From a virus: a stretch of DNA of 37,286 nucleotides. The stretch lies in IMG/VR virus record IMGVR_UViG_3300032116_000611, positions 1-37,286 of that record; one strand, given 5' to 3'. Position 1 is the stretch's first letter; the number at the start of each line of letters is the position of its first letter. Position numbers and translations under genes: made by a program. Positions 1 to 14,421 of the stretch are shown here, piece by piece. The notes below the pieces were generated by a model. The model was not told the origin of the DNA and made no database searches. It saw nothing but the letters and a program-made list of their open reading frames with translations.

Positions 1-1
1 A

Positions 2-3000
2 TCCTCAGGTGCACAATCAGCTATCGTTGGTGGACTATCCAATTCAGCTGCAGGAATTAGATCATTTATTGGTGGTGGTAACGCTAACTGTGGTACCACA
101 ACATACACAGTGGTAGCAGGTGGTACAGGAAATACATCCTCTGGATATGCTTCAGCAACAGTGGGAGGTATTACAAATACAGCCTCTGGTAATATATCAT
201 TTGTTGGAGGAGGTGTTTCAAACACTGCTAGTGGATATAGAGCCACTGTAACTGGAGGATATGGAAACGTTGCATCCACCTTACATTCATTTGTAGGAGC
301 TGGTACTGCTAATACAGCACAAGGAATCACCTCTGTTATAGCAGGTGGTAACTGTAACTTTGTATGTAATTCTACATCTGCATGTCTAGCTTTTGGAGCA
401 GTTGTAGTAGGAGGTGTTGGTAACAACACTACAGGAGGTACTTGGTCATTAGCTTCTTGTGCATTTACAGTGGCTCCAACAGTGTGCAATGCAGGTCCCT
501 ATTCTTTCATAGGAGGTGGTTTTCAGAATAGAGCAGCAGCTAATGCATCTACTGTAGGAGGTGGTGTTGCAAATACTGCTTCAGGTTATAGATCATCTGT
601 TTTAGGAGGTCAAGGAAACTGTTCTATTAACAGCTATTCTACCTTAGGAGGTGGTATTAATAATACGTCTTCTGGAAATGTTTCTACAATAGCTGGAGGT
701 AATGCTAATACAGCATCAGGAGATCATTCTACTGTTGCAGGAGGTATATCTAACACTGCTTCAGGTTATCGTGCAATAGTAGGTGGAGGTGCATCTAATA
801 CAGCCTCAGGCAATTGGTCCGCTGTATTAGGAGGAATTGCTAACAATTCAGTGGGAGGCTATTCTTTCATAGGCGCAGGTTCTAATAACAATGCTGGAGG
901 ATTACAAGCTACTGTAAGTGGTGGATATTCAAACTCAGCAGCTAACAACTATTCTACTATTAGTGGTGGATATGACAATACAGCATCAGGACTTGTTAGT
1001 TCTCTTGTAGGTGGTTTTAGAAACTTGGCTTCAGGCAATTGTAGTTTTGTTGGAGGTGGTTGTGCTAACTGTGCAACAAGTGATTATGCGTCTGTAGTAG
1101 GAGGTCAATTAAACTGTGCCACTGCAGGCTATTCATTTACTGGTGGTGGTTACAATAACAAAGCAACAAACTCACAAGCGACTGTAGCAGGAGGTTATGG
1201 CAACTTAGCTTCTGGTGCGAGAGGATTTGTGGGAGGAGGTCATACTAACACTGCATCAACATACGCTTCTGTAGTAGCAGGTGGTTATGGTAACAGAGCC
1301 TGCACAAGTGACTATTCAACAGTGGGCGGCGGTCTTGAAAATGTAGCATCAGGATGTGCTTCTGTGGTTTCAGGAGGTCAGACTAGCAATGCAACTGGAG
1401 CAAGATCTACAGTGGGAGGTGGACAGTCAAACACTGCTTCTGGTAACTGTTCATTTGTAGGAGGTGGTCAGTCTAATACAGCTTCAGGTGCATGGTCTAC
1501 TGTAGGAGGAGGATGTTCTAATAATGCATCTCAGAATAGATCAGCTATAGCAGGCGGTGGTTCAAATAGTGCTACTCAACCTTTATCTTTTGTTGGGGGA
1601 GGTTATGGTAACACTTCATCAGCTACATATGCAATGATAGGCGGTGGTTATTTAAACACTGCAAGTAATAATTATTCTGCTATAGCAGGTGGTAGAAATA
1701 ATGCTGCAAGTGGTGTAGCTTCATTTATTGGTGGTGGCTCTACTAACACAGCTTCAGGAAACTGTTCAACAGTAGGAGGAGGTAAAAGTAATACAGCATC
1801 AGGTATTTATTCATTCATAGGAGGCGGGGATTTAAACAGCTCTTCATGTAACAGAGCAACTATTGGAGGAGGATACAGCAACACTTCATCAGCACTATAT
1901 TCTACTATTTCAGGTGGATATAAAAACTATGCACAAGGAAATAGTTCTTTTGTAGGTGGTGGGGTTTGTAATATGATTTGTTGTGCCACTGCAACCTGTT
2001 GTTCAGTAGGTGCCACTATTGCAGGTGGTGTTGGTAATAATACAAGTGGTGGAACCTTTTCAGTAGCAGGTTATTTCACCGTAGCACCAACAACTCTTTA
2101 TGCGGCAGGTCAATTCTCTACAATTGGTGGTGGATTCCAAAATAGAGTGCAAGGTGCTTGTGCAACAGTTGCTGGTGGTGCAGCTAACGTTGCTTGTGGA
2201 AATAGATCGTTTATTGGAGGTGGTGATTCTAACTGTGCTACTAATGAAAGATCAGTAGTGGGCGGTGGATACAACAACACTTCATCTGGGGCTTATTCAA
2301 CAGTATCAGGAGGTTATCAAAACTGTGCCACTTCAATACATTCAACTGTTGGAGGAGGTAGAGCAAATAGAGCTACAGATAGTTACACAACAGTGGGAGG
2401 TGGATGGAACAACTTAGCCTCTGCAGTAAGATCTACAATTGCTGGTGGTGAGTCCAACTGCACTCCATCAGGAGGATATGCAACTGTTGGAGGAGGTTTC
2501 TTGAATATGGCATGCGGTCAAATGGCTGTTGTTGGAGGAGGTAGAGCAAATACTGGCTCAGGGACTTATTCTGTGGTTTCAGGAGGTTGCGTTAACACTG
2601 CTTCTGGTACATACTCATCTGTGGGTGGTGGTAGAAACAACTCTGCATCTTCTACAGGTTCTAGAGTAGGAGGTGGTAGAAACAACGTATCATCTAATAC
2701 AGATTCTGTTGTAGGTGGAGGAAACAGTAACACTGCATCAGGAGCACATTCAACAGTATCAGGTGGATATCAAAACGCAGCATCAGGTGCTTGTGCTACT
2801 ATAGCAGGAGGTAGAGCAGGTACAGCTTCTGCCGCATACGCATCAATAGGTGGTGGTACTGCAAATTTAGCATGCGGAACTCTTTCAACTGTGGCCGGAG
2901 GCCAAAGTAATACTGCTAGTGGTGCTAGAGCTTTTGCAGGTGGAGGTCAAAATAACACTGCATCAGGAAATTATTCTACAGTAGCAGGAGGTAGAGCTAA

Positions 3001-5842
3001 CACTGCTTCTGGTACATCAGGAGGCGGATTTGCATTCATAGGTGGAGGTTGTGGAAATACTGTATCTGGAGGTTATGCTTCTGTAGTGGTGGGTGGATGT
3101 GCAAACTGTGCTACATCTACACGTTCAACAGTAGTTGGAGGTAATCTTAATAAAGCGTTAAATGCTTCTACATTTGTAGGAGGCGGTGAAATCAACTGTG
3201 CTGTAGGTGTATTTGATGTTGTAGTGGGAGGATTTAATAATACAAATGCCTCTAGCTGTATGTCATTCATTGGTGGTGGTTGCTACAACTACATCTCAAC
3301 AGGTGTTTGGCAAACACTCGTAGGTGGTATTTGTAACTGTATCACATCAGGAGGATACAACTTTATTGGTGGTGGTTATAGAAACTGTTTAATTGGTAGT
3401 GCTTCTGAATCAGCAGTTGTAGTAGGAGGTACTAATACAGTAAGTAATTCATATTCTGCAATCTTAGCAGGTTCAGCAAACACAGTATCAGGTAAGTGTT
3501 CATCACTTGCTGGAGGTAGAGCAAACAGTGTTTCAGCAGATCTATCATTTATAGGAGGTGGTCTTAGTAACACAGCCTCAGGTGCTTGTTCTTTTATTGG
3601 TGGTGGTCAAGGAAATATATCTTCAGCTGGTCTATCTACAATTGCAGGTGGATTGAACAACCGTTCATGTGGAACTTATTCAACGGTGTCAGGAGGCTAT
3701 CTCAACTGTGCAACTGGTATTTTTGATGCTGTAGGAGGAGGTTGTTTTAATAGAGCATCAAATGGTTATTCAACTGTAGCAGGTGGTAATACTAACTTAG
3801 CTAATGGAGGTAGAGCTACTATAGGAGGAGGACAATCTAACTCAGCTAGTGGATACGCTTCTACAATAGCTGGAGGTAGAGCTAACACAACCTCTAATAC
3901 ATATTCCACTGTAGGTGGAGGATTAAGTAATCTATCATCAGGATTTGCTTCTACAATAGCAGGTGGTAGAAGTAACTGTGCCACTTCTGATGATGCAACA
4001 GTGGGAGGTGGATTAAGTAACACAGCATCTGCTTACAGAGCAACAGTTGCAGGTGGTAGAAAAAACTGTTCTACAGCTTGCCATGCTACAGTAAGTGGTG
4101 GATATGACAACGCCGCTTTATGCATTAATGGTACAATATCAGGAGGTCAGGGTAACAGAGTGTGTGGAGTTGCTGGTAGTGTTGGAGGTGGTGTATTTAA
4201 CTGTGCTACAGGAGCTTGTTCTGCAATCCTAGGTGGTTGTGGTAACACTGCATCAGCTTGTTGGGCAGGTGCATTCGGTTGCAACTTAAATGCAAACGTA
4301 GCCAAGACATTCTTTACTAACAACCAATGTATATCAGGCCAGTTAGTAGTCTCTGCTTCAGGAGGAGTTCAAACAGCCTGCTTCTTTGGTTCAGGCTCAA
4401 CCTTACTGTCTGTTGATGGTTCACAAGGTCGACTTCTAGAAGTAACAGACGATCTTTCTTGTTCTATTTTCTCAGCCAATACTATTGCAGGCCTTCCTGT
4501 TATAGAAGCCTTCTCTAACTATTGTGTTAGTCTAGGACAGTACAATGGTCACAAGTTCGAGGTGACTTGTAGATCTATCAGAGGTGGTAAGTGTAATACT
4601 GCATCAGGCATATACAGTTTTGTAGGAGGAGGTTGTTGTAATACGGCATCAAACTATTATTCATTTGTTGGAGAGGGAACATTTAACACCGCATCAGGAG
4701 TTAGAGCTACTATTGTTAATGGATCACAAAACTGTGCTTCAGCCAACTGCTCAATTATTGTAGGAGGCTCTAGTAATACCGCTTGTTCTGGATTTGCTTC
4801 TATAGTAGGAGGCGCACTTCATACCGCTTCAGGATATGGTTCATTTATAGGTGGTGGACTATGTAACCGTGTAACAACAACCTATTCAACTATCCCTGGT
4901 GGTAGACAAAACTGTGCTAATAACACTTATTCATTTATAGGCGGTGGTTATCTTAACTGTGCTACAAACACTTATACGACTATATCTGGTGGTTATAGTA
5001 ACGTAGCTTCTGCTGCTTATTCAACACTATCTGGTGGATACAATAATACTGCTTCTGGTACATACTCTGTAGTCGGAGGAGGATTTACAAACTGTGCTAC
5101 TTCAACAAGAAGTACTGTAGCTGGAGGTATGAATAATAGAGCTACTGCTCCTAGAAGTACAGTTGCAGGAGGAGAAGCTAATACATCATCAGGATACTAC
5201 GGATTTGTAGGTGGCGGCTTATATAACTGTGTTACATATACTCATACAACAATTGGTGGAGGTTGCCGTAACTGTGTCATAGGATGTTCTACTTCAGGTG
5301 TAATTGCAGGTGGATCTTGCAATACTATTAGTGGCTACGGTAATGATTCTGGTATATTAGGTGGTTTTGCTAACTGTGTTAACAGTCACGCTAACGCACA
5401 TATCATTGGATCATGTATTACTAGTACAGCTCAAAACTACACCTTTGTAAATAACTTATGTTGTACAGGTGGCGGTCTTTCTGACTGTCGTGTTAAAAAC
5501 ACAATTGAGCCTGTTAGATTCAGTCTTAATGAACTTACCAAACTTCAACCAGTTAGCTATTGTTGGAATGGTGATACATCATGCCATAAGAAGTACGGCT
5601 TCTTGGCTCAAGATGTACAACAAGCAATGTCTTGTGTGGTTACTTGCAATCAACTACACCGTCTAGGTCCTAATGGTACACAAGTACTTGGAGGAGATGG
5701 TGAACCACTTCTTGCCTTTGAAAAAGATGCAATCTATGCTTCATACATCAATGCCTTCAAAGAGTTGAAACAAGAGAATGATCAGCTGAAAGCTAGAATA
5801 GAAGCAATAGAAGCCATACTCAAGAAAAATAACCTGTTATAA
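2..5842 (+). CDS. Giant cysteine-rich beta-roll tail fibre with C-terminal S74 chaperone domain (5' end outside window)
   Basis: The reading frame is open from base 2, so the true start lies upstream; the GTG at 110 is only an internal codon. The visible ~1945 residues are mostly a 15-residue repeat of the form GGG-x-x-N-T-A-S-G-x-x-S-T/F-V/I, about a hundred copies, which resembles the YadA-head/trimeric-adhesin beta-roll. A non-repeat domain interrupts the array at about 4260-4590, after which repeats resume. From about 5480 the motif SDCRVKN starts an intramolecular chaperone domain (peptidase S74 family), followed by a C-terminal coiled coil (about 5755-5835). In that family the chaperone trimerises the fibre and then cleaves itself off at a conserved Ser, here probably the TCT codon at 5480-5482. 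I counted about 80 Cys by eye, which is unusual. The likely role is a receptor-binding side or tail fibre. The glycan block follows directly downstream. Confidence 0.9.
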   Translation, partial: SSGAQSAIVGGLSNSAAGIRSFIGGGNANCGTTTYTVVAGGTGNTSSGYASATVGGITNTASGNISFVGGGVSNTASGYRATVTGGYGNVASTLHSFVGAGTANTAQGITSVIAGGNCNFVCNSTSACLAFGAVVVGGVGNNTTGGTWSLASCAFTVAPTVCNAGPYSFIGGGFQNRAAANASTVGGGVANTASGYRSSVLGGQGNCSINSYSTLGGGINNTSSGNVSTIAGGNANTASGDHSTVAGGISNTASGYRAIVGGGASNTASGNWSAVLGGIANNSVGGYSFIGAGSNNNAGGLQATVSGGYSNSAANNYSTISGGYDNTASGLVSSLVGGFRNLASGNCSFVGGGCANCATSDYASVVGGQLNCATAGYSFTGGGYNNKATNSQATVAGGYGNLASGARGFVGGGHTNTASTYASVVAGGYGNRACTSDYSTVGGGLENVASGCASVVSGGQTSNATGARSTVGGGQSNTASGNCSFVGGGQSNTASGAWSTVGGGCSNNASQNRSAIAGGGSNSATQPLSFVGGGYGNTSSATYAMIGGGYLNTASNNYSAIAGGRNNAASGVASFIGGGSTNTASGNCSTVGGGKSNTASGIYSFIGGGDLNSSSCNRATIGGGYSNTSSALYSTISGGYKNYAQGNSSFVGGGVCNMICCATATCCSVGATIAGGVGNNTSGGTFSVAGYFTVAPTTLYAAGQFSTIGGGFQNRVQGACATVAGGAANVACGNRSFIGGGDSNCATNERSVVGGGYNNTSSGAYSTVSGGYQNCATSIHSTVGGGRANRATDSYTTVGGGWNNLASAVRSTIAGGESNCTPSGGYATVGGGFLNMACGQMAVVGGGRANTGSGTYSVVSGGCVNTASGTYSSVGGGRNNSASSTGSRVGGGRNNVSSNTDSVVGGGNSNTASGAHSTVSGGYQNAASGACATIAGGRAGTASAAYASIGGGTANLACGTLSTVAGGQSNTASGARAFAGGGQNNTASGNYSTVAGGRANTASGTSGGGFAFIGGGCGNTVSGGYASVVVGGCANCATSTRSTVVGGNLNKALNASTFVGGGEINCAVGVFDVVVGGFNNTNASSCMSFIGGGCYNYISTGVWQTLVGGICNCITSGGYNFIGGGYRNCLIGSASESAVVVGGTNTVSNSYSAILAGSANTVSGKCSSLAGGRANSVSADLSFIGGGLSNTASGACSFIGGGQGNISSAGLSTIAGGLNNRSCGTYSTVSGGYLNCATGIFDAVGGGCFNRASNGYSTVAGGNTNLANGGRATIGGGQSNSASGYASTIAGGRANTTSNTYSTVGGGLSNLSSGFASTIAGGRSNCATSDDATVGGGLSNTASAYRATVAGGRKNCSTACHATVSGGYDNAALCINGTISGGQGNRVCGVAGSVGGGVFNCATGACSAILGGCGNTASACWAGAFGCNLNANVAKTFFTNNQCISGQLVVSASGGVQTACFFGSGSTLLSVDGSQGRLLEVTDDLSCSIFSANTIAGLPVIEAFSNYCVSLGQYNGHKFEVTCRSIRGGKCNTASGIYSFVGGGCCNTASNYYSFVGEGTFNTASGVRATIVNGSQNCASANCSIIVGGSSNTACSGFASIVGGALHTASGYGSFIGGGLCNRVTTTYSTIPGGRQNCANNTYSFIGGGYLNCATNTYTTISGGYSNVASAAYSTLSGGYNNTASGTYSVVGGGFTNCATSTRSTVAGGMNNRATAPRSTVAGGEANTSSGYYGFVGGGLYNCVTYTHTTIGGGCRNCVIGCSTSGVIAGGSCNTISGYGNDSGILGGFANCVNSHANAHIIGSCITSTAQNYTFVNNLCCTGGGLSDCRVKNTIEPVRFSLNELTKLQPVSYCWNGDTSCHKKYGFLAQDVQQAMSCVVTCNQLHRLGPNGTQVLGGDGEPLLAFEKDAIYASYINAFKELKQENDQLKARIEAIEAILKKNNLL
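4260..4590 (+). other. Non-repeat domain interrupting the fibre beta-roll
   Basis: Within the fibre gene the GGG/NTASG repeat stops, and a segment containing LLSVDGSQGRLLEVTDD and AGLPVIEAF appears. The repeats restart at about 4590. In many phage fibres a segment of this type sits just before the S74 chaperone. Its internal position here, with a second run of repeats before the chaperone, suggests that two fibre modules were fused in tandem or that a segment was duplicated. The function of this domain is not known to me. Confidence 0.6.
5480..5842 (+). other. Peptidase S74 / intramolecular chaperone domain of the fibre
   Basis: The domain begins with S-D-C-R-V-K-N and continues with ELTKLQPVSYCWN and KKYGFLAQDVQQ, all hallmarks of the endosialidase-type chaperone domain. 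It ends in a heptad-like helix (ELKQENDQLKARIEAIEAIL). Family knowledge says it assists trimer folding and is released by self-cleavage before the first Ser. The Ser codon is at 5480-5482 and the following Asp at 5483-5485. Confidence 0.85.
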
Positions 5843-5856
5843 ACTACAACTAACAC

Positions 5857-5864
5857 ATATTTAT
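5857..5864 (+). promoter_or_regulatory. Putative late-promoter element ATATTTAT
   Basis: Exact ATATTTAT, 35 bases from its first base to the ATG at 5892. It lies in the 49-base gap after the fibre gene. It is one of 11 exact copies placed before start codons in this window. Confidence 0.55.
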
Positions 5865-5891
5865 TAATAAGCAAAATAAACTTAACTAACT

Positions 5892-6233
5892 ATGATCTTC
5901 GGTAAAATTAACCCAGTAGCTACAGTATATCAACAAGCCACTCCATTTGGAACTACAACTGTAACTGGTTCTTACATGACTGCTATAGCTCGCCCATACG
6001 TTCTAGGAGCTAACCAAGTTAACTTCCAAGTTGTTTATGGTAACTGTACTTTTGACACAGGATCAGGTGCTGTTACTAACTTCCAACAAGTGTTCAGCGA
6101 TAACGTAGTACTTTCTGGAAGTGTTATCACTACTTGGGGTGAAGACGATACTGTTATCTTAGACGCTATTGCTGACCAGCAAGGAACTGAGGTTACTCAG
6201 GTTGTTTCTGGAAGTAACAATATGATGTTCTAA
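5892..6233 (+). CDS. Small protein of unknown function behind the tail fibre
   Basis: A 113-residue protein that I do not recognise. It is rich in Val, Thr, Gly and Asn with alternating hydrophobic residues, which suggests a beta-rich fold. It has no signal peptide, no membrane segment and a single Cys. It has its own upstream ATATTTAT element and follows the fibre gene by 49 bases, so a small virion or fibre-associated protein is plausible. That assignment rests on context alone. Confidence 0.65.
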   Translation: MIFGKINPVATVYQQATPFGTTTVTGSYMTAIARPYVLGANQVNFQVVYGNCTFDTGSGAVTNFQQVFSDNVVLSGSVITTWGEDDTVILDAIADQQGTEVTQVVSGSNNMMF

Positions 6234-6264
6234 AATAAATTTTTTTCTTTCAACCAGTTTTTGT

Positions 6265-6272
6265 ATATTTAG
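6265..6272 (+). promoter_or_regulatory. Near-match to the putative late-promoter element (ATATTTAG)
   Basis: ATATTTAG, one base off the ATATTTAT consensus, only 11 bases before the ATG at 6276 and preceded by a T-rich tract. It would drive the glycan operon. It is weaker and closer to the start codon than the other copies. Confidence 0.35.
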
Positions 6273-6275
6273 GTT

Positions 6276-7148
6276 ATGAACATAATCTTCCAAATAAATG
6301 GAGGTATTGGTAAGTGTGTTATGGCCACGGCTGTTTGTGAAGCCATAAAGAAAAAATACCCCGACTCTAAGCTTATCGTAGTCTCTGGCTACGCTGATGT
6401 ATTCTTGAATAACCCCCATGTATATAGGTCATACCAATACGGGGGTATTTCTTATTTCTATAGTGAGTATATTGATGGGCATGACTACAAGATCTTTGCC
6501 CATGATCCTTATGTACAAACAGAGTATGTAGAACAAAAAGAGCACCTGATCAAAACATGGTGTGAGATGTACGATGTGCCTTATAATGGTGAACAGCCTA
6601 AGATCTATTTGACAGGCCGTGAAGTCAAGTTCTTCGAGAACAAGTTCACGTCAGACAGACCGATACTACTACTTCAAACTAATGGTGGAGCTCAAACAGA
6701 GCATAAGTATAGTTGGGCTAGAGACATTCCTTCTAGTGTAGCAGTTAAGGTGATAGACCACTTTAGACTAGAGTATAATGTAGTTCATATTAGGCGTGAT
6801 GATCAAAATCAGTTTGAAGGCACATTCGGTGTCTCAGACACATTCAGAGCGCTTTGCGTATTGATCTCCATGTCCAGTAAAAGACTGTTGATTGATAGCT
6901 TTGCCCAACACGTAGCGGCTTCTATGAACCTCCCATCAACTGTGTGTTGGATAGCTAATTCACCTAAAGTGTTTGGCTACACTATGCACAACAATATATT
7001 AGCAAACCCTTTTACCACTAAGCCTGAACTTAGGAACAGTTACTTTGGTAAATTCAATATAGCTGGAGACTTGCTTGAGTTTCCTTATAACCACGAAGAC
7101 GAGATCTTCGATGTAGACAAGATAATCAAATCGATAGAACAACTATAA
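6276..7148 (+). CDS. GT9-like glycosyltransferase, possible heptosyltransferase
   Basis: A 290-residue protein with the layout of GT-B fold glycosyltransferases of the GT9/ADP-heptosyltransferase type. The N-terminal glycine-rich loop is GGIGKCVMATAV (residues 9-20), followed by an alternating beta/alpha pattern (SKLIVVSG). The C-terminal half carries LLIDSFAQHVAASMNLPSTVCW-type sequence, matching the GT9 pattern D-S-x-x-x-H-x-A-A before a Pro-containing strand. GT9 enzymes transfer heptose from ADP-heptose to lipopolysaccharide core. Genes for ADP-heptose synthesis lie 2-4 kb downstream in the same operon-like block, which supports this donor. It could instead use another nucleotide sugar or modify a phage protein. 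The acceptor cannot be read from sequence. Confidence 0.65.
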   Translation: MNIIFQINGGIGKCVMATAVCEAIKKKYPDSKLIVVSGYADVFLNNPHVYRSYQYGGISYFYSEYIDGHDYKIFAHDPYVQTEYVEQKEHLIKTWCEMYDVPYNGEQPKIYLTGREVKFFENKFTSDRPILLLQTNGGAQTEHKYSWARDIPSSVAVKVIDHFRLEYNVVHIRRDDQNQFEGTFGVSDTFRALCVLISMSSKRLLIDSFAQHVAASMNLPSTVCWIANSPKVFGYTMHNNILANPFTTKPELRNSYFGKFNIAGDLLEFPYNHEDEIFDVDKIIKSIEQL

Positions 7149-7154
7149 ACTGTT

Positions 7155-7973
7155 ATGGAAAGACTATTTCATCAATCTTCACTGCCTAGAGCAGGTTCAA
7201 CTCTTCTGCAAAACATTCTGGCACAGAACCCAGACATTTATGCTACACCTACTTCAGGCGTATTAGAATTAGTGTTCGCAGCTAGAGGTAATTACACAGA
7301 TTCACCAGAGTTTAAAGCGCAAGACGCTGAAGTAATGAAGAAGGCGTTTCTAGCCTTTTGTACTCAAGGTATGAAAGCATACTACGAAGCTATTACAGAC
7401 CAAAAGTATGTGATCGACAAGTCAAGAGGCTGGGGTATACACTACGACTTCTTGAACCTATTAAACCCTGAGCCAAAGATCATTTGCATGGTTCGTGACC
7501 TTCGTGACATTTTTGCATCAATGGAGAAGAACTATCGTAAGAACCCTGACAAACAAGACCCTATTCTTAACTGGGCACAGATGAGTGGAACAACTGTACC
7601 AAAACGTATTGACATTTGGGCACAGAATCCACCTGTAGGTATGGCGATTGAAAGACTAGGTGAGATCTTTAGAATGGGAATCGATAGCAAGATGTTGTTC
7701 GTTAAGTTCGAAGACCTTTGTTTATACCCAGAACAACAGATGCACAGAATATACACTTATCTAGACATACCATTTTATTCACATGACTTCGATAATATCG
7801 AGCAAGTAACAAAAGAAGACGACGAAGTATACGGAGCGTTTGGTGATCACGTTATCAGAACTAAGCTAGAGCCAGTGCCTTCTAAGGCAAAGACACTACT
7901 TGGCAAAGATGTAACAGATTGGATCTACAATACATACAAATGGTACTTCGATCAGTTCGGTTATAAAAAGTAA
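7155..7973 (+). CDS. PAPS-dependent sulfotransferase
   Basis: A 272-residue protein with both PAPS-binding signatures of the sulfotransferase family. The 5'-phosphosulfate loop is SSLPRAGSTLL (residues 8-18) and the 3'-phosphate-binding segment is MVRDLRDIFASM (about residues 111-122). Sulfotransferases move sulfate from 3'-phosphoadenosine-5'-phosphosulfate to a hydroxyl or amine, often on sugars. The gene starts 6 bases after the glycosyltransferase and is followed 3 bases later by an APS kinase that could supply its donor. The acceptor is unknown: host surface glycan, a heptose-containing glycan made by this block, or a virion protein. There is no signal peptide, so it should act in the cytoplasm. 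Confidence 0.85.
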   Translation: MERLFHQSSLPRAGSTLLQNILAQNPDIYATPTSGVLELVFAARGNYTDSPEFKAQDAEVMKKAFLAFCTQGMKAYYEAITDQKYVIDKSRGWGIHYDFLNLLNPEPKIICMVRDLRDIFASMEKNYRKNPDKQDPILNWAQMSGTTVPKRIDIWAQNPPVGMAIERLGEIFRMGIDSKMLFVKFEDLCLYPEQQMHRIYTYLDIPFYSHDFDNIEQVTKEDDEVYGAFGDHVIRTKLEPVPSKAKTLLGKDVTDWIYNTYKWYFDQFGYKK

Positions 7974-7976
7974 CAC

Positions 7977-8426
7977 ATGATTATATCTTTATTTGGCCAA
8001 CCACATTGTGGTAAAACAACATTGGCTAAGCAGTTAATTTCTACTCAAACATTCGATCAATACTGGAATATTGATGGCGATGAACTAAGAAACATATTCA
8101 AGAACAAGAACTTCACAAGAGAAGGTCGTATTCAGAACTTGAATAGAGCAAGTGATATTGCCCACTACATGAATAGTATAGGCTCAGCTGGTATTATATT
8201 ATCATTGATATACCCATACAAAGAAGCAAGAGACTATTTAAACAGTCTAACTGACGAAGTTAGATGGGTGTATCTAAGTTATAATGGTGAACGTGGTCGT
8301 GAGAATTATCACGTAAAAGACTTTGAACTACCACAAGAAAGTGAGAGAGTGCTTCACTTAAATACAACAGAACTAACTCCTCAAGAGTGTATTGAATCAA
8401 TCGAAAGGTATGTCTACAATAACTAA
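7977..8426 (+). CDS. cysC: Adenylylsulfate (APS) kinase
   Basis: A 149-residue P-loop kinase. GQPHCGKTT (residues 7-15) is the Walker A loop. DGDELR near residue 34 matches the APS-kinase LDGDxLR motif, R-x-x-N-x-x-R lies near residues 51-59, and IYPYKEARDYL corresponds to the family's I-x-PY-x-x-x-R segment. It phosphorylates adenylylsulfate to PAPS. Bacterial CysC is usually about 200 residues, so this is compact, with a short N-terminus. The neighbouring sulfotransferase is the obvious consumer. It overlaps the next gene by 17 bases. Confidence 0.85.
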   Translation: MIISLFGQPHCGKTTLAKQLISTQTFDQYWNIDGDELRNIFKNKNFTREGRIQNLNRASDIAHYMNSIGSAGIILSLIYPYKEARDYLNSLTDEVRWVYLSYNGERGRENYHVKDFELPQESERVLHLNTTELTPQECIESIERYVYNN

Positions 8427-8793
8427 TGTACATGAATGTCCAGGTTGTAAGATACCAAAAGGTTGGGGCCATGAACTAATCATACACAATTCTGACAAGT
8501 ATTGTGGAAAGGTTTTAGTATTCAACAAAGGTTGCAAATTTAGCATGCACTACCATTTGTTAAAGCAAGAAACGTGGTACGTCAATAAAGGATCATTCAA
8601 ATATAGATGGATTGATACAGAAAAAGGTGAGACTCTAGAGACAACACTCAAGCTAGGAGATGTTGTAACACAGTATCCAGGAATGCCTCATCAATTAGAG
8701 GCTTTAGAAGATGGAGAAATATTCGAAGTTAGCACTCAGCACTTCGACTCAGATAGTTATAGAATATGGAAAGGAGACTCACAATCTACGTAG
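8410..8793 (+). CDS. Single-domain cupin, mannose-6-phosphate isomerase/sugar-type
   Basis: I chose the ATG at 8410 (MSTITN) over an upstream TTG at 8392; the result is 127 residues overlapping the APS kinase by 17 bases. The cupin metal motif is visible: H47-Y-H49-x4-E54 in motif 1 and H94 in PGMPHQ for motif 2. KGWGHE near residue 17 recalls the KPWGxE signature of type II phosphomannose isomerase cupins. Such small cupins act as sugar-phosphate isomerases or epimerases, or bind sugar nucleotides. A CPGC pair near residue 10 adds a possible extra metal site. Membership of the sugar block supports a role in carbohydrate metabolism, but the reaction is not determined. Confidence 0.75.
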   Translation: MSTITNVHECPGCKIPKGWGHELIIHNSDKYCGKVLVFNKGCKFSMHYHLLKQETWYVNKGSFKYRWIDTEKGETLETTLKLGDVVTQYPGMPHQLEALEDGEIFEVSTQHFDSDSYRIWKGDSQST

Positions 8794-9071
8794 ACATAGA
8801 CAATACTATTTGTCTTACACCTGATGATGTTCATTATAGCCAATCTCTTCCTATCAAAGAGAATATTGACAAGATCAATAAGCTCTATAGAGAAGGACAC
8901 ACTATAGTCTATTGGACAGCTAGAGGCATGAGAAGTAAAGTTGACTACACAGAGTTAACAGAAAAGCAGTTGAAAGAATGGGGATGCAAATACCATCAAC
9001 TGATCATGAATCATAAACCAGCTTACGATATGCTGATATGTGATAAGACAAAACGTATAGAAGAACTATGA
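8766..9071 (+). CDS. Small HAD-family phosphatase
   Basis: A 101-residue HAD protein starting at ATG 8766, overlapping the cupin by 28 bases. D10-I-D12-N-T14 is the catalytic DxDxT loop, Thr51 in YWTARG is motif II, Lys84 is a motif III candidate and ICDK (Asp93) is motif IV. Short HAD phosphatases of this kind are common in capsule and lipopolysaccharide clusters. The next genes make ADP-heptose, whose pathway needs a phosphatase for heptose-1,7-bisphosphate (GmhB step). This protein could fill that step but is much smaller than GmhB, so the assignment is inference. Confidence 0.75.
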   Translation: MERRLTIYVDIDNTICLTPDDVHYSQSLPIKENIDKINKLYREGHTIVYWTARGMRSKVDYTELTEKQLKEWGCKYHQLIMNHKPAYDMLICDKTKRIEEL

Positions 9072-9472
9072 AAAAGGTTTGGACAAACGGTACATTCGAT
9101 GTTCTACATGTTGGCCATTTAAAGTTGTTAGAGTACGCAGCTTCATTTGGTCAATTAACTGTAGGAATAGACTCTGATAAAAGAGTAAAAGAGTTGAAAG
9201 GACTAGACAGACCTTTTAACAATACATTAGACAGAAAGTACTTTTTAGAGTCAATCAAGTTTGTTCACAACGTAGTTGTATTTAACTCGAGAGAAGAGTT
9301 GATCAATATGGTAAAAGACTTTGAGCCTGACTATATGGTAATAGGAAGCGACTATATTGACAAACCTGTCTTTGGTTCAGAATACGCAAAAGAGTTATTG
9401 TTTTTTGACAAGTTAGAACAGTACTCGACTACAACGATATTAAGCTATGAAAAAGATATTAGTAATAGGTGA
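9068..9472 (+). CDS. rfaE2: D-glycero-beta-D-manno-heptose 1-phosphate adenylyltransferase (HldE C-domain type)
   Basis: A 134-residue cytidylyltransferase-fold enzyme. NGTFDVLHVGH (residues 7-17) holds the HxGH nucleotide-binding motif. VGIDSDKRVKELKG, RPFNN and the closing STTTIL follow the order seen in the adenylyltransferase domain of HldE/RfaE. It would charge heptose-1-phosphate with AMP to give ADP-heptose. In E. coli this domain is fused behind the kinase in HldE; here it is a separate gene placed before the kinase, overlapping it by 26 bases. The start overlaps the HAD gene stop as ATGA. A glycerol-3-phosphate cytidylyltransferase-like role is the main alternative, made less likely by the adjacent heptose kinase and epimerase. 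Confidence 0.82.
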   Translation: MKKVWTNGTFDVLHVGHLKLLEYAASFGQLTVGIDSDKRVKELKGLDRPFNNTLDRKYFLESIKFVHNVVVFNSREELINMVKDFEPDYMVIGSDYIDKPVFGSEYAKELLFFDKLEQYSTTTILSYEKDISNR

Positions 9473-10190
9473 TTTTTGTATTGACTGTTTTATATATGGC
9501 AAAACTGAAAGGCTGAGCCCAGAAGCACCTGTTCCAGTATTTGTGCCTACACAAAGTAAAATAAACGATGGTATGGCTGGAAATGTTGCTACTAACTTAA
9601 CAGCAATGTCTACAGAATATCATGTTGAACTATACCATCAAGATGAGGTGATCAAGAAGACCAGGTATATTGATCAGAATACTAACCACATGTTTTTACG
9701 TGTAGATGAAGGAGAAGATTCTATAACACCTCTAGTGTTGACTGAAGAAGTTACTAAGAGAATACAAGAAGCAGAAGCTGTGGTTATTAGTGATTATAAT
9801 AAAGGGTACCTTGACCTTGAAACAATTAATCAGATAGGTAAACTGGCTAAAAGATCTTTTTTAGACACTAAGAAGAAAATTAACTCGGATACGATAGAAA
9901 GATTTACATTTATTAAACTAAACGAAGAGGAGTTTAAGAAGAACATGACTGATGATCCTGAGAAGTTAAAGAAGATAATCGCAACACTTGGTAGTAGAGG
10001 TGCACAGTATATGGGTAAGTTATACCCTGTAGTTGCAAAAGAAACAATAGACGTATCAGGAGCAGGTGACACATTCTTATCTGCTTTTGTACTAAAACAC
10101 TTAGAAACTAATGATGTAGAGATAGCAATAACATTTGCTAACAAGATGAGTTCAATTGTTGTATCAAAGAAAGGAGTAGTAACACCATGA
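9447..10190 (+). CDS. rfaE1: D-beta-D-heptose 7-phosphate kinase (PfkB family, HldE N-domain type), compact
   Basis: A 247-residue PfkB/ribokinase-family protein. GDFCIDCFIYG with ERLSPEAPVPV (residues 8-31) is a close match to the HldE kinase N-terminus, and GMAGNVATNL follows as the substrate loop. SGAGDTFLSAF near residue 203 contains the anion hole and the catalytic Asp. It would phosphorylate heptose-7-phosphate at C1. HldE kinase domains are usually over 300 residues. Here the segment between the NVATNL helix and the R-Y-I-D strand is very short, so a lid or dimerisation subregion may be missing. The gene overlaps the adenylyltransferase and ends in an ATGA overlap with the epimerase. 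Confidence 0.82.
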   Translation: MKKILVIGDFCIDCFIYGKTERLSPEAPVPVFVPTQSKINDGMAGNVATNLTAMSTEYHVELYHQDEVIKKTRYIDQNTNHMFLRVDEGEDSITPLVLTEEVTKRIQEAEAVVISDYNKGYLDLETINQIGKLAKRSFLDTKKKINSDTIERFTFIKLNEEEFKKNMTDDPEKLKKIIATLGSRGAQYMGKLYPVVAKETIDVSGAGDTFLSAFVLKHLETNDVEIAITFANKMSSIVVSKKGVVTP

Positions 10191-11005
10191 GAGCATTAAT
10201 AACAGGACATAAAGGGTTTATTGGCTATAACTTGAAAAAGATGTTAGAAGCCAAAATGGACCGTTATATATATGGTCTAGATGAAGAGTTGTTTGATTCA
10301 CCTAATTGGAAAGAAGACCTTGAGTCATACATATATAGACAACAGCCTGACATTATATTTCATGTAGGAGCTTGTGCAGATACTATGAATCAAGACGTAG
10401 AATACATGATGACTAGAAACTATGAGTCAACAGTTATTATGTCTAATTTAGCAAAGATACACGATATACCTTTTATATATAGTTCATCTGCCGCTAACTA
10501 TGGTGATGTAAATGGGAATCGCAATTTATATGCTTGGTCTAAATACGCAGCAGAAAAACATGTAGTAGCAAACTATCAAGTAGCACTACGATACTTTAAT
10601 GTGTATGGTCCTGGTGAGGGTCATAAAGGTAAGATGGCTTCCGTTGCACACCAGATGTTTAATAGACATAAAGCTAAACAACCTGTACAACTATTTCCAG
10701 GTCGTCCTCAAAGAGACTTTATTTATATTGATGATGTAGTGTCTGCTAATATTGAGGCTATGGTAGGATACCACGAACTACGTGGTGATTGGTATGATGT
10801 AGGATCTGGTGAAGCCAACACGTTTGAGTCTGTCTTAGAACATTTAAATATACCTTATACATACAAAGATAAATCAGAGATGCCTGATAACTATCAAATG
10901 TATACAAAGGCAGATCAACGTAAAATGCTACCAGGTTGGATTCCTAAATTTACACTAGAACAAGGACTAAAAAAGTACAAAGAATATCTATGCAAAACTA
11001 TTTAG
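10187..11005 (+). CDS. hldD: ADP-L-glycero-D-manno-heptose 6-epimerase-like SDR enzyme
   Basis: A 272-residue extended short-chain dehydrogenase. TGHKGFIG (residues 6-13) is the NAD(P)-binding glycine motif, and Y115-x-x-x-K119 is the catalytic pair. ALRYFNVYGPGEGHKGKMAS is close to the diagnostic HldD segment, followed by LFPGRPQRDFIYIDDVV. HldD inverts C6 of ADP-D-glycero-D-manno-heptose to the L,D form used by heptosyltransferases. It starts in an ATGA overlap with the kinase. The run adenylyltransferase-kinase-epimerase makes the pathway assignment strong. A UDP-sugar epimerase is the alternative. Confidence 0.85.
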   Translation: MRALITGHKGFIGYNLKKMLEAKMDRYIYGLDEELFDSPNWKEDLESYIYRQQPDIIFHVGACADTMNQDVEYMMTRNYESTVIMSNLAKIHDIPFIYSSSAANYGDVNGNRNLYAWSKYAAEKHVVANYQVALRYFNVYGPGEGHKGKMASVAHQMFNRHKAKQPVQLFPGRPQRDFIYIDDVVSANIEAMVGYHELRGDWYDVGSGEANTFESVLEHLNIPYTYKDKSEMPDNYQMYTKADQRKMLPGWIPKFTLEQGLKKYKEYLCKTI

Positions 11006-11376
11006 CAAAAGCTCAGAGTAAGTCAGGCAAATATGCAATGTTTATTGGCCGTTGGCAGCCTTGGCATGATGGCCACCGTTGGTTAATTGACCAAGCCTTA
11101 AATGAAGACAAGAAAGTGTTGTTGTGTGTTCGTGATGTTCCTACAAGTGAATCTAACCCATGGACAGCAGATCAAATACTATTAAACTTGGCTGACGCAC
11201 TAAAAGATCTTATCGAAGAAGGCCGTGTTCACATCATGAAGATACCTGATATTGAGTCTATTAATATTGGCCGAGGTGTTGGTTATGATGTAATTGAGCA
11301 TGTGCCACCTCAAGAGATTCACGATATATCAGCTACCAAGATCAGAGAGCAAATGAAGCAAGAAGGAAAGCTATGA
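10990..11376 (+). CDS. HxGH nucleotidylyltransferase of unsettled specificity
   Basis: A 128-residue protein of the nucleotidylyltransferase superfamily. GRWQPWHDGHRWL holds HxGH at residues 26-29, and ISATKIRE (113-120) is the C-terminal nucleotide-binding motif. The pattern is close to NadM-type nicotinamide-nucleotide adenylyltransferases. The ISxTxxR motif also occurs in ATP sulfurylases, so a sulfate-activating role feeding the APS kinase is conceivable but unproven. It overlaps the epimerase by 16 bases and the DUF2061 gene by ATGA. Confidence 0.7.
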   Translation: MQNYLAKAQSKSGKYAMFIGRWQPWHDGHRWLIDQALNEDKKVLLCVRDVPTSESNPWTADQILLNLADALKDLIEEGRVHIMKIPDIESINIGRGVGYDVIEHVPPQEIHDISATKIREQMKQEGKL

Positions 11377-11585
11377 CAGTACAAAAGAAAAGGCATATTG
11401 CCAAAACGATCAGCTACCGTATAGTCAGCACCTTGATAGGATTTCTAATCATGTGGGCTGCCACAGGATCTGTTAAAATAGGAGCTGCTTTCGGTATAGC
11501 AGAGCTAGTATATAAGCCAATCCAGTACTACCTTCATGAGAGGGTCTGGTACAAATGGATCAAGTACGGCCTGAAGCAGGACTAG
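11373..11585 (+). CDS. DUF2061-family small membrane protein
   Basis: A 70-residue protein with a basic N-terminus (KKRHIAKTISYR) then two hydrophobic segments (about residues 17-31 and 35-50), ending in YLHERVWYKWIKYG. The order K-T-x-S-Y-R then R-x-W-x-x-I-x-W/Y-G is typical of DUF2061. This family is often encoded near sulfate-activation genes in bacteria, as I recall. Here it ends the block with an APS kinase and sulfotransferase. The biochemical function is not known. Confidence 0.75.
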   Translation: MTVQKKRHIAKTISYRIVSTLIGFLIMWAATGSVKIGAAFGIAELVYKPIQYYLHERVWYKWIKYGLKQD

Positions 11586-12657: not shown

Positions 12658-14421
12658 ATGGCCGAAACACTTCTTAGCCCAGGAGTTTTCTTGAATGAAA
12701 ACGATCTATCACAAATAACCTCGGGTCCAGTTGCAGCCGGCGCTGCACTTATGGGTCCTACAGTAATTGGTCCAGTTAATATTCCAACATTAGTAACTTC
12801 ATACTCACAGTACAAAGCTATCTTTGGTGCTGCGTTCGTTTCTGGAGGTGCTAATTTTGAATACCTAACATCTATTGCTGCCCTTAACTACTTTGAACAA
12901 GGTGGTGAGTCTTTGTTAGTAACTAGAGTTGCCTCTGGTTCTTATACAGCAGCAACAGCATCAGTTTCTGGATCTAACGGAATAGAGTCATTTAAACTAG
13001 AAACTCTTTCTGTAGGTACAATAATGAATAACGTAAACGGTAATACATTAGGTACTAACGGATCTCTTCCATCTGGTTCTTCTGCCAACGTTCGTTGGGA
13101 AGTAACTGGCGTAGACACTGGTTCTGGTGTTTTCAGTCTTGTTATCCGTCGTGGTGATGACTATAATAATAGTAAGACTATTCTAGAAACATGGAATAAT
13201 CTATCTCTAGATCCTAATCAAAATAATTATATTGCTTACGTAATAGGAGACCAAACTCAAACTATTCGTCAAGATTCAACTGGAGACTACTACTTGCAAA
13301 CTACAGGTTCTTATCAGAATAATAGCTTGTACGTTCGTGTATCTTCTGTTAATCAGCCAACTCCTGGTTACTTTAACCAAGTTGGTGTTGCTCAAAATAT
13401 GTATACAGCGTCACTACCAACTCTTGGTTCAGGTTCATTAAATGGAGCTTTTGGCGGTGCCGCAGGAGTTATTTTCGGTTCTTTTGGAAAGGCTCCTCTT
13501 AACATGTTTGAGAACATTCCAAATGTTGCTTCTACAGTAGCAACTCCAACAACTAACATTCAAGGTGTTCACCCTGCTGACTATAATGTAGCTATCAACC
13601 TTCTTGAGAATACTGATGCGTACGACTTCAATGTTGTTTACGCTCCAGGTTTGACTAGCGTAAACGCTGCAACTCAAGTATCTGATCTTTTACTTTTAGC
13701 TCAAGGTCGTGGCGACAATATTGCTGTTGTTGATATGGTTGGATATGGTCAACAAATAAATAGTGTTATTGGTCAAGCTGTATCTTATGACAACTCATAC
13801 GGTGCAACTTACTGGCCATGGGTACAGATTCGTTCACGCGAAACTGGTAAAGTTAACTTCGTTCCAGCTTCTACATTAGTACCAGCTGTTTACGAATACA
13901 ATGATAAAGTATCTGCAGAATGGTTTGCTCCAGCAGGTCTTAACAGAGGTTCTCTTTCAACTGTACTTCAGCCAGAAAGAAAGATCGGTGTAAATGATCG
14001 TAACGTTCTATATCAAGGAAAGGTTAACCCAATCGCTACCTTCCCAGGTGTTGGAACAGTTATCTATGGTCAGAAGACTCTTCAACAGAAGCCTTCTGCT
14101 CTTGATCGTGTAAATGTAAGTCGTCTATTGATCGCTCTTAAATCTTATATCGGTCAATTAGGTGAGCAGATCGTGTTCGAGCCAAACACTCAAGTAACTC
14201 GTAACAAGTTCTTAAGCCAAGTTAATCCTTATCTTGAGTCTGTACAACAGCGTCAAGGTCTATATGCCTTCCAAGTTGTAATGGACGAATCTAATAACAC
14301 TCCAGATGTAGTAGATCGTAACCAATTAGTTGGTACAATTTATCTACAGCCAACTAAGACTGCTGAATTCATCCAACTTGACTTCAACATTCTTCCGACT
14401 GGTGCAACATTTGGTCAATAA
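12658..14421 (+). CDS. gp18: Contractile tail sheath protein
   Basis: A 587-residue protein. The N-terminus (AETLLSPGVFLNENDLS) has the S-PGV-x-x-x-E pattern of phage sheath proteins, and the C-terminal third (SRLLIALKSYIGQLGEQ, EPNTQVTRNKF, TAEFIQLDFNIL) matches the conserved sheath fold that contacts the tube. The middle part is more variable. Sheath subunits polymerise round the tail tube and contract on infection. T4 gp18 is 659 residues, so the length is normal. It is followed by a small unknown protein and then the tail tube gene, as expected for a T4-like tail module. Confidence 0.93.
   Translation: MAETLLSPGVFLNENDLSQITSGPVAAGAALMGPTVIGPVNIPTLVTSYSQYKAIFGAAFVSGGANFEYLTSIAALNYFEQGGESLLVTRVASGSYTAATASVSGSNGIESFKLETLSVGTIMNNVNGNTLGTNGSLPSGSSANVRWEVTGVDTGSGVFSLVIRRGDDYNNSKTILETWNNLSLDPNQNNYIAYVIGDQTQTIRQDSTGDYYLQTTGSYQNNSLYVRVSSVNQPTPGYFNQVGVAQNMYTASLPTLGSGSLNGAFGGAAGVIFGSFGKAPLNMFENIPNVASTVATPTTNIQGVHPADYNVAINLLENTDAYDFNVVYAPGLTSVNAATQVSDLLLLAQGRGDNIAVVDMVGYGQQINSVIGQAVSYDNSYGATYWPWVQIRSRETGKVNFVPASTLVPAVYEYNDKVSAEWFAPAGLNRGSLSTVLQPERKIGVNDRNVLYQGKVNPIATFPGVGTVIYGQKTLQQKPSALDRVNVSRLLIALKSYIGQLGEQIVFEPNTQVTRNKFLSQVNPYLESVQQRQGLYAFQVVMDESNNTPDVVDRNQLVGTIYLQPTKTAEFIQLDFNILPTGATFGQ

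Follow-up and report, generated by a model that had tools for sequence, protein, structure and literature searches.

We examined a window of 37,286 bases, the whole of the IMG/VR virus record IMGVR_UViG_3300032116_000611 (coordinates are in window numbering), which derives from an uncultured immuto-like, T4-like phage of freshwater metagenomes, and focused on a block of genes with predicted roles in sulfation and sugar transfer. As a preliminary description of this DNA had stated, ten overlapping or near-contiguous genes lie between a long fibre gene and the tail module, all on the plus strand and no more than 8 bp apart where they do not overlap. The start given there, position 5480, is still within the fibre gene, whose last base is 5842; the true block spans 6276-11585, and it does not stand directly behind the fibre, a gene for a protein of 113 amino acids (aa) intervening at 5892-6233. 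The gene content and arrangement of the block are certain. It consists of two modules: a sulfation core, comprising a GT9-fold glycosyltransferase (GT), a sulfotransferase (ST), an adenosine 5'-phosphosulfate (APS) kinase homologue (APSK), a 128-aa nucleotidyltransferase (NTase) and a DUF2061 protein, and an optional ADP-heptose insert with cupin, HAD, HldC-, HldA- and HldD-like genes.

Searching IMG/VR with four of the block proteins yielded approximately 300 loci, and the sulfation core was found again on approximately 100 related contigs. The recurring unit is a fibre gene, a small gene, GT and ST in either order, APSK, NTase and DUF2061, often with a tail sheath gene. All ten genes occur in the same order as in the window in L008 and L019, and the order is nearly retained in L030/L190, L046/L210, L077, L095 and L106; since the gene order recurs in this way, the arrangement is not a product of chance. 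The insert is located between APSK and NTase in L008, L019, L030/L190, L046/L210, L047/L095, L077 and L106, and in L181 it is present without the HAD gene. The linkage to fibres, whose conservation in related genomes the preliminary description proposed as a check, persists in marine phages and in inverted loci (L097/L194/L198/L201), where GT and ST still adjoin the fibre.

The fibre gene (1-5842, plus strand) is open at the window start and its product therefore lacks the N-terminus here. The protein carries 15-residue repeats of the left-handed beta-roll type, [GA]GGxxNTASGxxST[VI], and ends in a Peptidase_S74 intramolecular chaperone (PF13884, E 4e-9). It is rich in Ser (13.5%) and Thr (9.7%), with just 28 Asp and Glu residues in 1780 aa. 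The repeats are also rich in Cys (4.3% of the first 1780 residues), which is unusual for a cytoplasmically assembled protein. Three classes of fibre repeat were found near the cassette, namely type A ([GA]GGxxNTASG), to which the window belongs, type B (AIGYNALxxNTTG) and type C (kelch-like, EEYNG). Loci with a type A fibre have an ST at least 66% identical to that of the window, those with type B have an ST of 47-54% identity and the gene order ST-GT, and those with type C have an ST of 45-46% identity. GT/ST subtype matched fibre class with no exceptions in 48 typed dereplicated loci (35 A, 10 B and 3 C), the class labels resting on motif counts picked after the loci had been viewed and one locus of mixed signal, L189, having been left untyped. 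When fibre-type changes were counted on trees of the type A and type B loci and compared with shuffled labels, there was a single change for ST (shuffle mean 9.1) and for GT (9.2), whereas the numbers were near random for APSK (7; shuffle 9.0), NTase (7; 8.7), DUF2061 (6; 8.7), sheath (5; 5.8) and tube (4; 4.6). It appears that fibre, GT and ST move jointly across phage backbones while the genes for supply of 3'-phosphoadenosine 5'-phosphosulfate (PAPS) are common to all, and this co-segregation, a new result, would favour an acceptor that is linked to the fibre, the simplest candidate being the fibre protein.

GT (6276-7148, plus strand, 290 aa) had no Pfam match, a search of the window with PF01075 (Glyco_transf_9) was empty, and no sequence-profile match was obtained in PDB; in the absence of a sequence match, the family was assigned by fold. 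The AlphaFold model (pLDDT 93.6) gave Foldseek top matches exclusively to GT9 structures, namely 3tov, WaaF (1psw), WaaC and TibC, with E values of 5e-11 to 1e-6, and the enzyme is likely to be ADP-heptose-dependent. TibC and related bacterial autotransporter heptosyltransferases (BAHTs, including AAH) modify Ser in repeat-rich autotransporter adhesins (PMC4358343). GT shares with them the GT9/GT-B catalytic fold, at a TM-score of 0.55-0.67, but is approximately 100 aa shorter and only about 13% identical to TibC. WaaC and WaaF have the same fold, and GT shares a GT9-like donor-lobe motif, D-S-x-x-x-H-x-A-A, with them; however, in place of the N-terminal GD motif of WaaC and WaaF, the window GT family has an invariant G12-K13.

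ST (7155-7973, plus strand) matched PF13469 above the cut-off (E 1.5e-18) and phrog_27463, and is a putative PAPS-dependent enzyme whose 5'-PSB loop, P11-R12-x-G14-S15-T16, is invariant across the family. Profile matches in PDB were to TPST1/2, CurM and StaL, the best being TPST1, in the PAPS-binding regions. In the profile alignment, however, the GEET of TPST1, the region of the catalytic Glu that follows the 5'-PSB loop, aligns with P-T-S in ST, so that conservation does not extend to this region. Because of its absence and because acidic residues are few near fibre Tyr, only 8 of 72 having an acidic context, sulfation of fibre tyrosines in the manner of TPST was rejected.

The gene following ST encodes a short APSK (7977-8426, plus strand; PF01583, E 3.4e-10, with APS kinases matched in PDB). 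Its P-loop, GQPHCGKT, and the motif DGDELR vary little or not at all among family members, whereas the canonical substrate loop KKARxGEIKxFTG is replaced in all aligned rows by a shorter RGRExxHVxDFE; the canonical loop is present in the bacterial APS kinase partners in L340, L327 and L361. NTase (10990-11376, plus strand) belongs to a family of approximately 110-160 aa with a NadM-like fold, and DUF2061 (11373-11585, plus strand; PF09834, E 3e-17) is a small membrane protein. As in known PAPS synthesis enzymes (CysDN/CysC, Sat-APSK fusions and PAPSS), an APS kinase homologue is here accompanied by a nucleotidyltransferase, and in Omnitrophota metagenome-assembled genomes (MAGs) the two are fused. 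NTase differs from the nucleotidyltransferases of those systems in that NadM is closest: profile searches gave CTP_transf_like and NadM-like matches only, with no homology to PF01747 or CysD. In viruses, an APS kinase lies at most two genes upstream of NTase in 102 of 106 distinct cases, and in two further cases heptose genes part the pair (104/106 in total). In bacterial genomes, an APS kinase is within two genes of NTase at 42 of 67 loci; fusions account for many of the others. For example, among bacterial loci in which neighbours outside the Pfam runs were identified by eye, L327 (Omnitrophota) has NTase fused to a canonical APS kinase, and sulfotransferase-like genes and one sulfatase-like gene are close by; L340 (Flavobacteriales) has a canonical APS kinase and NTase, together with a CysQ-like gene of the inositol-phosphatase family, one flippase-like gene and two that are sulfotransferase-like; and in the Bacteroidota MAG loci L361 (7318-8013) and L365 (6786-7481) DUF2061 is fused to the APS kinase N-terminus directly before NTase, a sulfotransferase-like gene adjoining the pair. 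These fusions suggest that DUF2061 may play a part in PAPS supply.

The known sulfate adenylyltransferases are mostly missing from genomes with NTase: Sat (PF01747) was found in 6 and CysD (threshold E<1e-50) in 5 of 49 such genomes, 10 in union, and one or the other in 7 of the 38 with a ribosomal marker. By comparison, CysD or Sat was found in 76 of 78 genomes that lacked NTase but matched APS kinase strongly, drawn from 149 Bacteroidia (Fisher p 7e-21), the NTase genomes being mostly MAGs and single-cell genomes of several phyla that are unlike the comparison set in size and completeness. Because of this scarcity and the pairing with APS kinase, the simplest reading is that NTase would supply APS, probably as an ATP sulfurylase of miniature size. 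A role in NAD salvage, separate from the sulfate genes, was considered, since nicotinamide mononucleotide adenylyltransferases are closest to NTase among solved structures and NCBI models; given the pairing in viruses and bacteria, the fusions to canonical APS kinase, the sulfotransferase and CysQ-like neighbours, and the lack of CysD and Sat in most NTase genomes, this function was judged unlikely from genomic context. No report of a short ATP sulfurylase was found in the open-licence literature. The candidate miniature sulfate adenylyltransferase is the second new result and the strongest new lead, and is independent of the phage question; if the assignment is true, a very small enzyme fills the gap in many bacteria that have an APS kinase but no known ATP sulfurylase. 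More tentatively, and with something well below even confidence, we propose the wider view that NTase represents the smallest, unrecognised class of sulfate adenylyltransferase, forming with APSK and DUF2061 a stand-alone PAPS supply in phages and in many Bacteroidota, Marinimicrobia and Omnitrophota, and which the phages with the cassette may employ in decorating their repeat-rich fibres with sulfate and heptose.

The heptose insert begins with a cupin homologous to T4-GC 307 (8392-8793; phrog_7851, E 8e-40) and a small HAD phosphatase-like protein homologous to T4-GC 306 (8766-9071; EcbF/BcbF and HAD-IIIA matches, phrog_1238), followed by an HldC/HldE-C-like heptose-1-phosphate adenylyltransferase (9068-9472; TIGR02199, E 2e-25), an HldA/HldE-N-like heptose-7-phosphate kinase (9447-10190; TIGR02198, E 8e-40) and an HldD-like ADP-heptose 6-epimerase with the motifs YxxSK and EGHKGKMAS (10187-11005; TIGR02197, E 3e-52), all on the plus strand. 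The kinase is shorter than the bacterial form and shares 36-44% identity with cyanophage homologues. The HAD protein is a candidate heptose-bisphosphate phosphatase, and the label of its PHROG, 'phosphoheptose isomerase', is apparently mistaken, as the matches are to HAD phosphatase models. Cyanophage proteins annotated in the same way (for example, PSSM2_311 of P-SSM2) are its homologues and are probably misnamed. No GmhA-type isomerase was found among the annotations of the block or the window, leaving the pathway incomplete here; that enzyme may be supplied by the host. Heptose genes were present in 8 dereplicated loci, all of type A or untyped, and in none of 13 of type B or C, which is only suggestive of a limitation to type A.

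The preliminary description was aware of no phage system of this composition. For the ADP-heptose part this does not hold, as the insert is homologous to the T4-GC 304-308 set of cyanophages (P-SSM2, S-SM2, S-SSM7 and S-CAM1/3) already published as lipopolysaccharide (LPS) genes (PMC3037559, PMC2984593); for the remainder, no report of a phage sulfotransferase combined with heptose genes was found in the open-licence literature. T4-GC 304, 305, 307 and 308 were noted by Sullivan et al. (2010) to co-occur in three phages and were thought to be functionally linked (PMC3037559). All five heptose genes are found together in the window, P-SSM2, S-CAM3 and AG-345-O18. The cyanophage set differs from the window in epimerase orientation and gene order, and no APSK, NTase or DUF2061 was seen alongside it; no APSK match was found in 50,697 phage records. 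The heptose genes lie between tail-fibre genes in P-SSM2, S-CAM1 and S-CAM3 and adjoin head-tail genes in S-SSM7. Cyanobacterial LPS is devoid of heptose (PMC4515613), and a simple LPS-core role in cyanophages sits poorly with this.

The fibre-adjacent slot of relatives holds further genes, encoding SET-domain proteins, an FkbM methyltransferase, 2OG-Fe(II) oxygenases and GT25 and GT4 family transferases, which would fit a modification site. The targets of SET enzymes are usually proteins. A SET-domain protein of 128-130 aa (PF00856, E 1e-9 for L226) is encoded between GT and ST in one phage subgroup, represented by L226, L208, L212, L213, L218, L219 and L222. In the type C locus L010 (3364-9136), 2OG-Fe(II) oxygenase genes, one with a match to PF13759, lie upstream of GT, and three kelch-like proteins with CTEEYNG repeats are encoded between GT and the sulfotransferase. 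In the marine single-cell viruses AG-345-L05 and AG-345-O18 (L006, 470-14564, and L005, 1395-16691), sulfotransferase genes adjoin those for kelch-like adhesins of approximately 1000 aa, carbamoyltransferase-like genes are present too, and L005 additionally has the heptose cassette.

Given which genes are present, the fold of GT, the conserved gene order and the way subtypes follow fibre class, the leading function for the block, ahead of a change to the host envelope, is that of a late, fibre-linked sulfo-glycosylation cassette decorating the fibre, to which we would assign a chance just short of even. Judging from the enzyme families and genomics, NTase would adenylylate sulfate to APS and APSK would convert this to PAPS, with DUF2061 perhaps holding the pair at the membrane. 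The HldA-, HldC- and HldD-like enzymes would produce ADP-heptose from a host sedoheptulose-derived heptose phosphate, possibly with the HAD protein as phosphatase, and phages without the insert would draw on the host pool. GT would then place heptose, and ST sulfate, onto an acceptor, most likely the neighbouring Ser/Thr-rich beta-roll fibre, which would be modified cytoplasmically, ahead of virion assembly. Decoration of the fibre is supported because GT resembles TibC (and WaaF) in fold and GT/ST subtypes follow fibre class; because GT and ST stay beside the fibre in inverted loci and ST beside repeat-rich adhesins in the marine single-cell viruses; because SET-domain and 2OG-Fe(II) oxygenase genes share the slot, and no flippase, polymerase or ligase was found among the annotations of the window block; and because cyanophages carry heptose genes by fibres though the LPS of their hosts lacks heptose. 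To our knowledge, no sulfated phage fibre has been known before, and this would be the first; if the proposal is true, phage 'LPS' clusters shift from the superinfection idea toward a testable one of fibre modification.

Several observations weigh against fibre decoration. GT9 enzymes mostly act on LPS, WaaF and WaaC being LPS-directed, and TM-scores give no basis for choosing between TibC and WaaF as the closer match to GT. The analogy with protein heptosyltransferases, drawn in the preliminary description, gains support from the fold and the co-segregation but is weakened by WaaF being equally close and by the iron finger: no C-terminal Cys cluster corresponding to the four-cysteine finger of the dodecameric TibC (PMC4358343) was found in the 290-aa GT or in the conserved columns of its family. 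The same description would have given up the idea if the block were never near fibres in relatives; P-SSM2, S-CAM1 and S-CAM3 run counter to this, whereas in S-SM2, P-TIM68, S-T4 and Sf-CH5 the heptose genes are in sugar clusters that are not beside fibres. About three-quarters of type A loci have no heptose genes, and DUF2061 suggests a membrane location. In addition, physical linkage and recombination in conserved flanks can produce co-segregation; the 113-aa gene also largely tracks fibre type (2 changes), and the test for physical versus functional linkage therefore does not exclude linkage.

Co-segregation is equally expected if the cassette masks the receptor of the fibre. On this alternative, sulfated heptose would be added to host LPS or capsule, blocking superinfection or the loss of progeny on debris, with specificity following the fibre through the masked receptor. 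For the cyanophage LPS genes, the standing proposal is that they alter the host surface against other phages (PMC2984593), and it agrees with the LPS-directed habit of GT9 enzymes, the membrane family DUF2061, the flippase-like gene beside the bacterial APS kinase, NTase and sulfotransferases in L340, and an additional GT4-family glycosyltransferase in type B loci. Nevertheless, the genes lie within the tail/fibre module and not in an early region, genes for export or ligation are missing from the block, phages of cyanobacteria, whose LPS is heptose-free, carry heptose genes, and SET-domain enzymes in the slot hint at a protein target; envelope remodelling is thus a real but doubtful contender. 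It is improbable that the acceptor is some other protein of the virion or host, for instance the product of the 113-aa gene or another tail protein, rather than the beta-roll shaft: the 113-aa gene does lie between fibre and GT in types A and B and largely tracks fibre type, but it was not found in all loci (63 gene calls versus 155 for ST), and its acceptor sites would be few beside those of the repeats. Finally, passenger or spacer DNA, an exchangeable hypervariable segment of no defined role, would fit the swapping of the segment among phage backbones and the 'stuffer DNA' raised for cyanophage LPS clusters (PMC3037559), but seems very improbable given that genes stay open and co-directional across approximately 100 dereplicated loci, catalytic motifs are conserved down to 40-60% identity, and NTase and APSK are paired in 104 of 106 viral loci.

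Concerning the remaining features, the 113-aa protein (S5892; plus strand), a possible fibre accessory conserved between the fibre gene and the GT/ST genes in loci of types A and B, had no Pfam or PHROG match. The type B fibre and the 758- and 290-aa proteins of L005 are Cys-rich, like the fibre of the window. Downstream of the block are the tail sheath (12658-14421, plus strand; phrog_23, E 8e-68), tail tube and baseplate hub, and then a replication block. The helicase shares 54% identity with its counterpart in Flavobacterium phage immuto, the nearest cultured relative, in which the order fibre, sheath, tube, hub and tape measure is similar and no such block is found in the genome. We infer that the host of the window phage belongs to Bacteroidota. 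A contig binned in a Chitinophagaceae MAG (L324, 3692-6343) carries phage-like HldD, APSK, NTase and DUF2061 genes; it may be a phage, and gives a weak hint at a host in that phylum.

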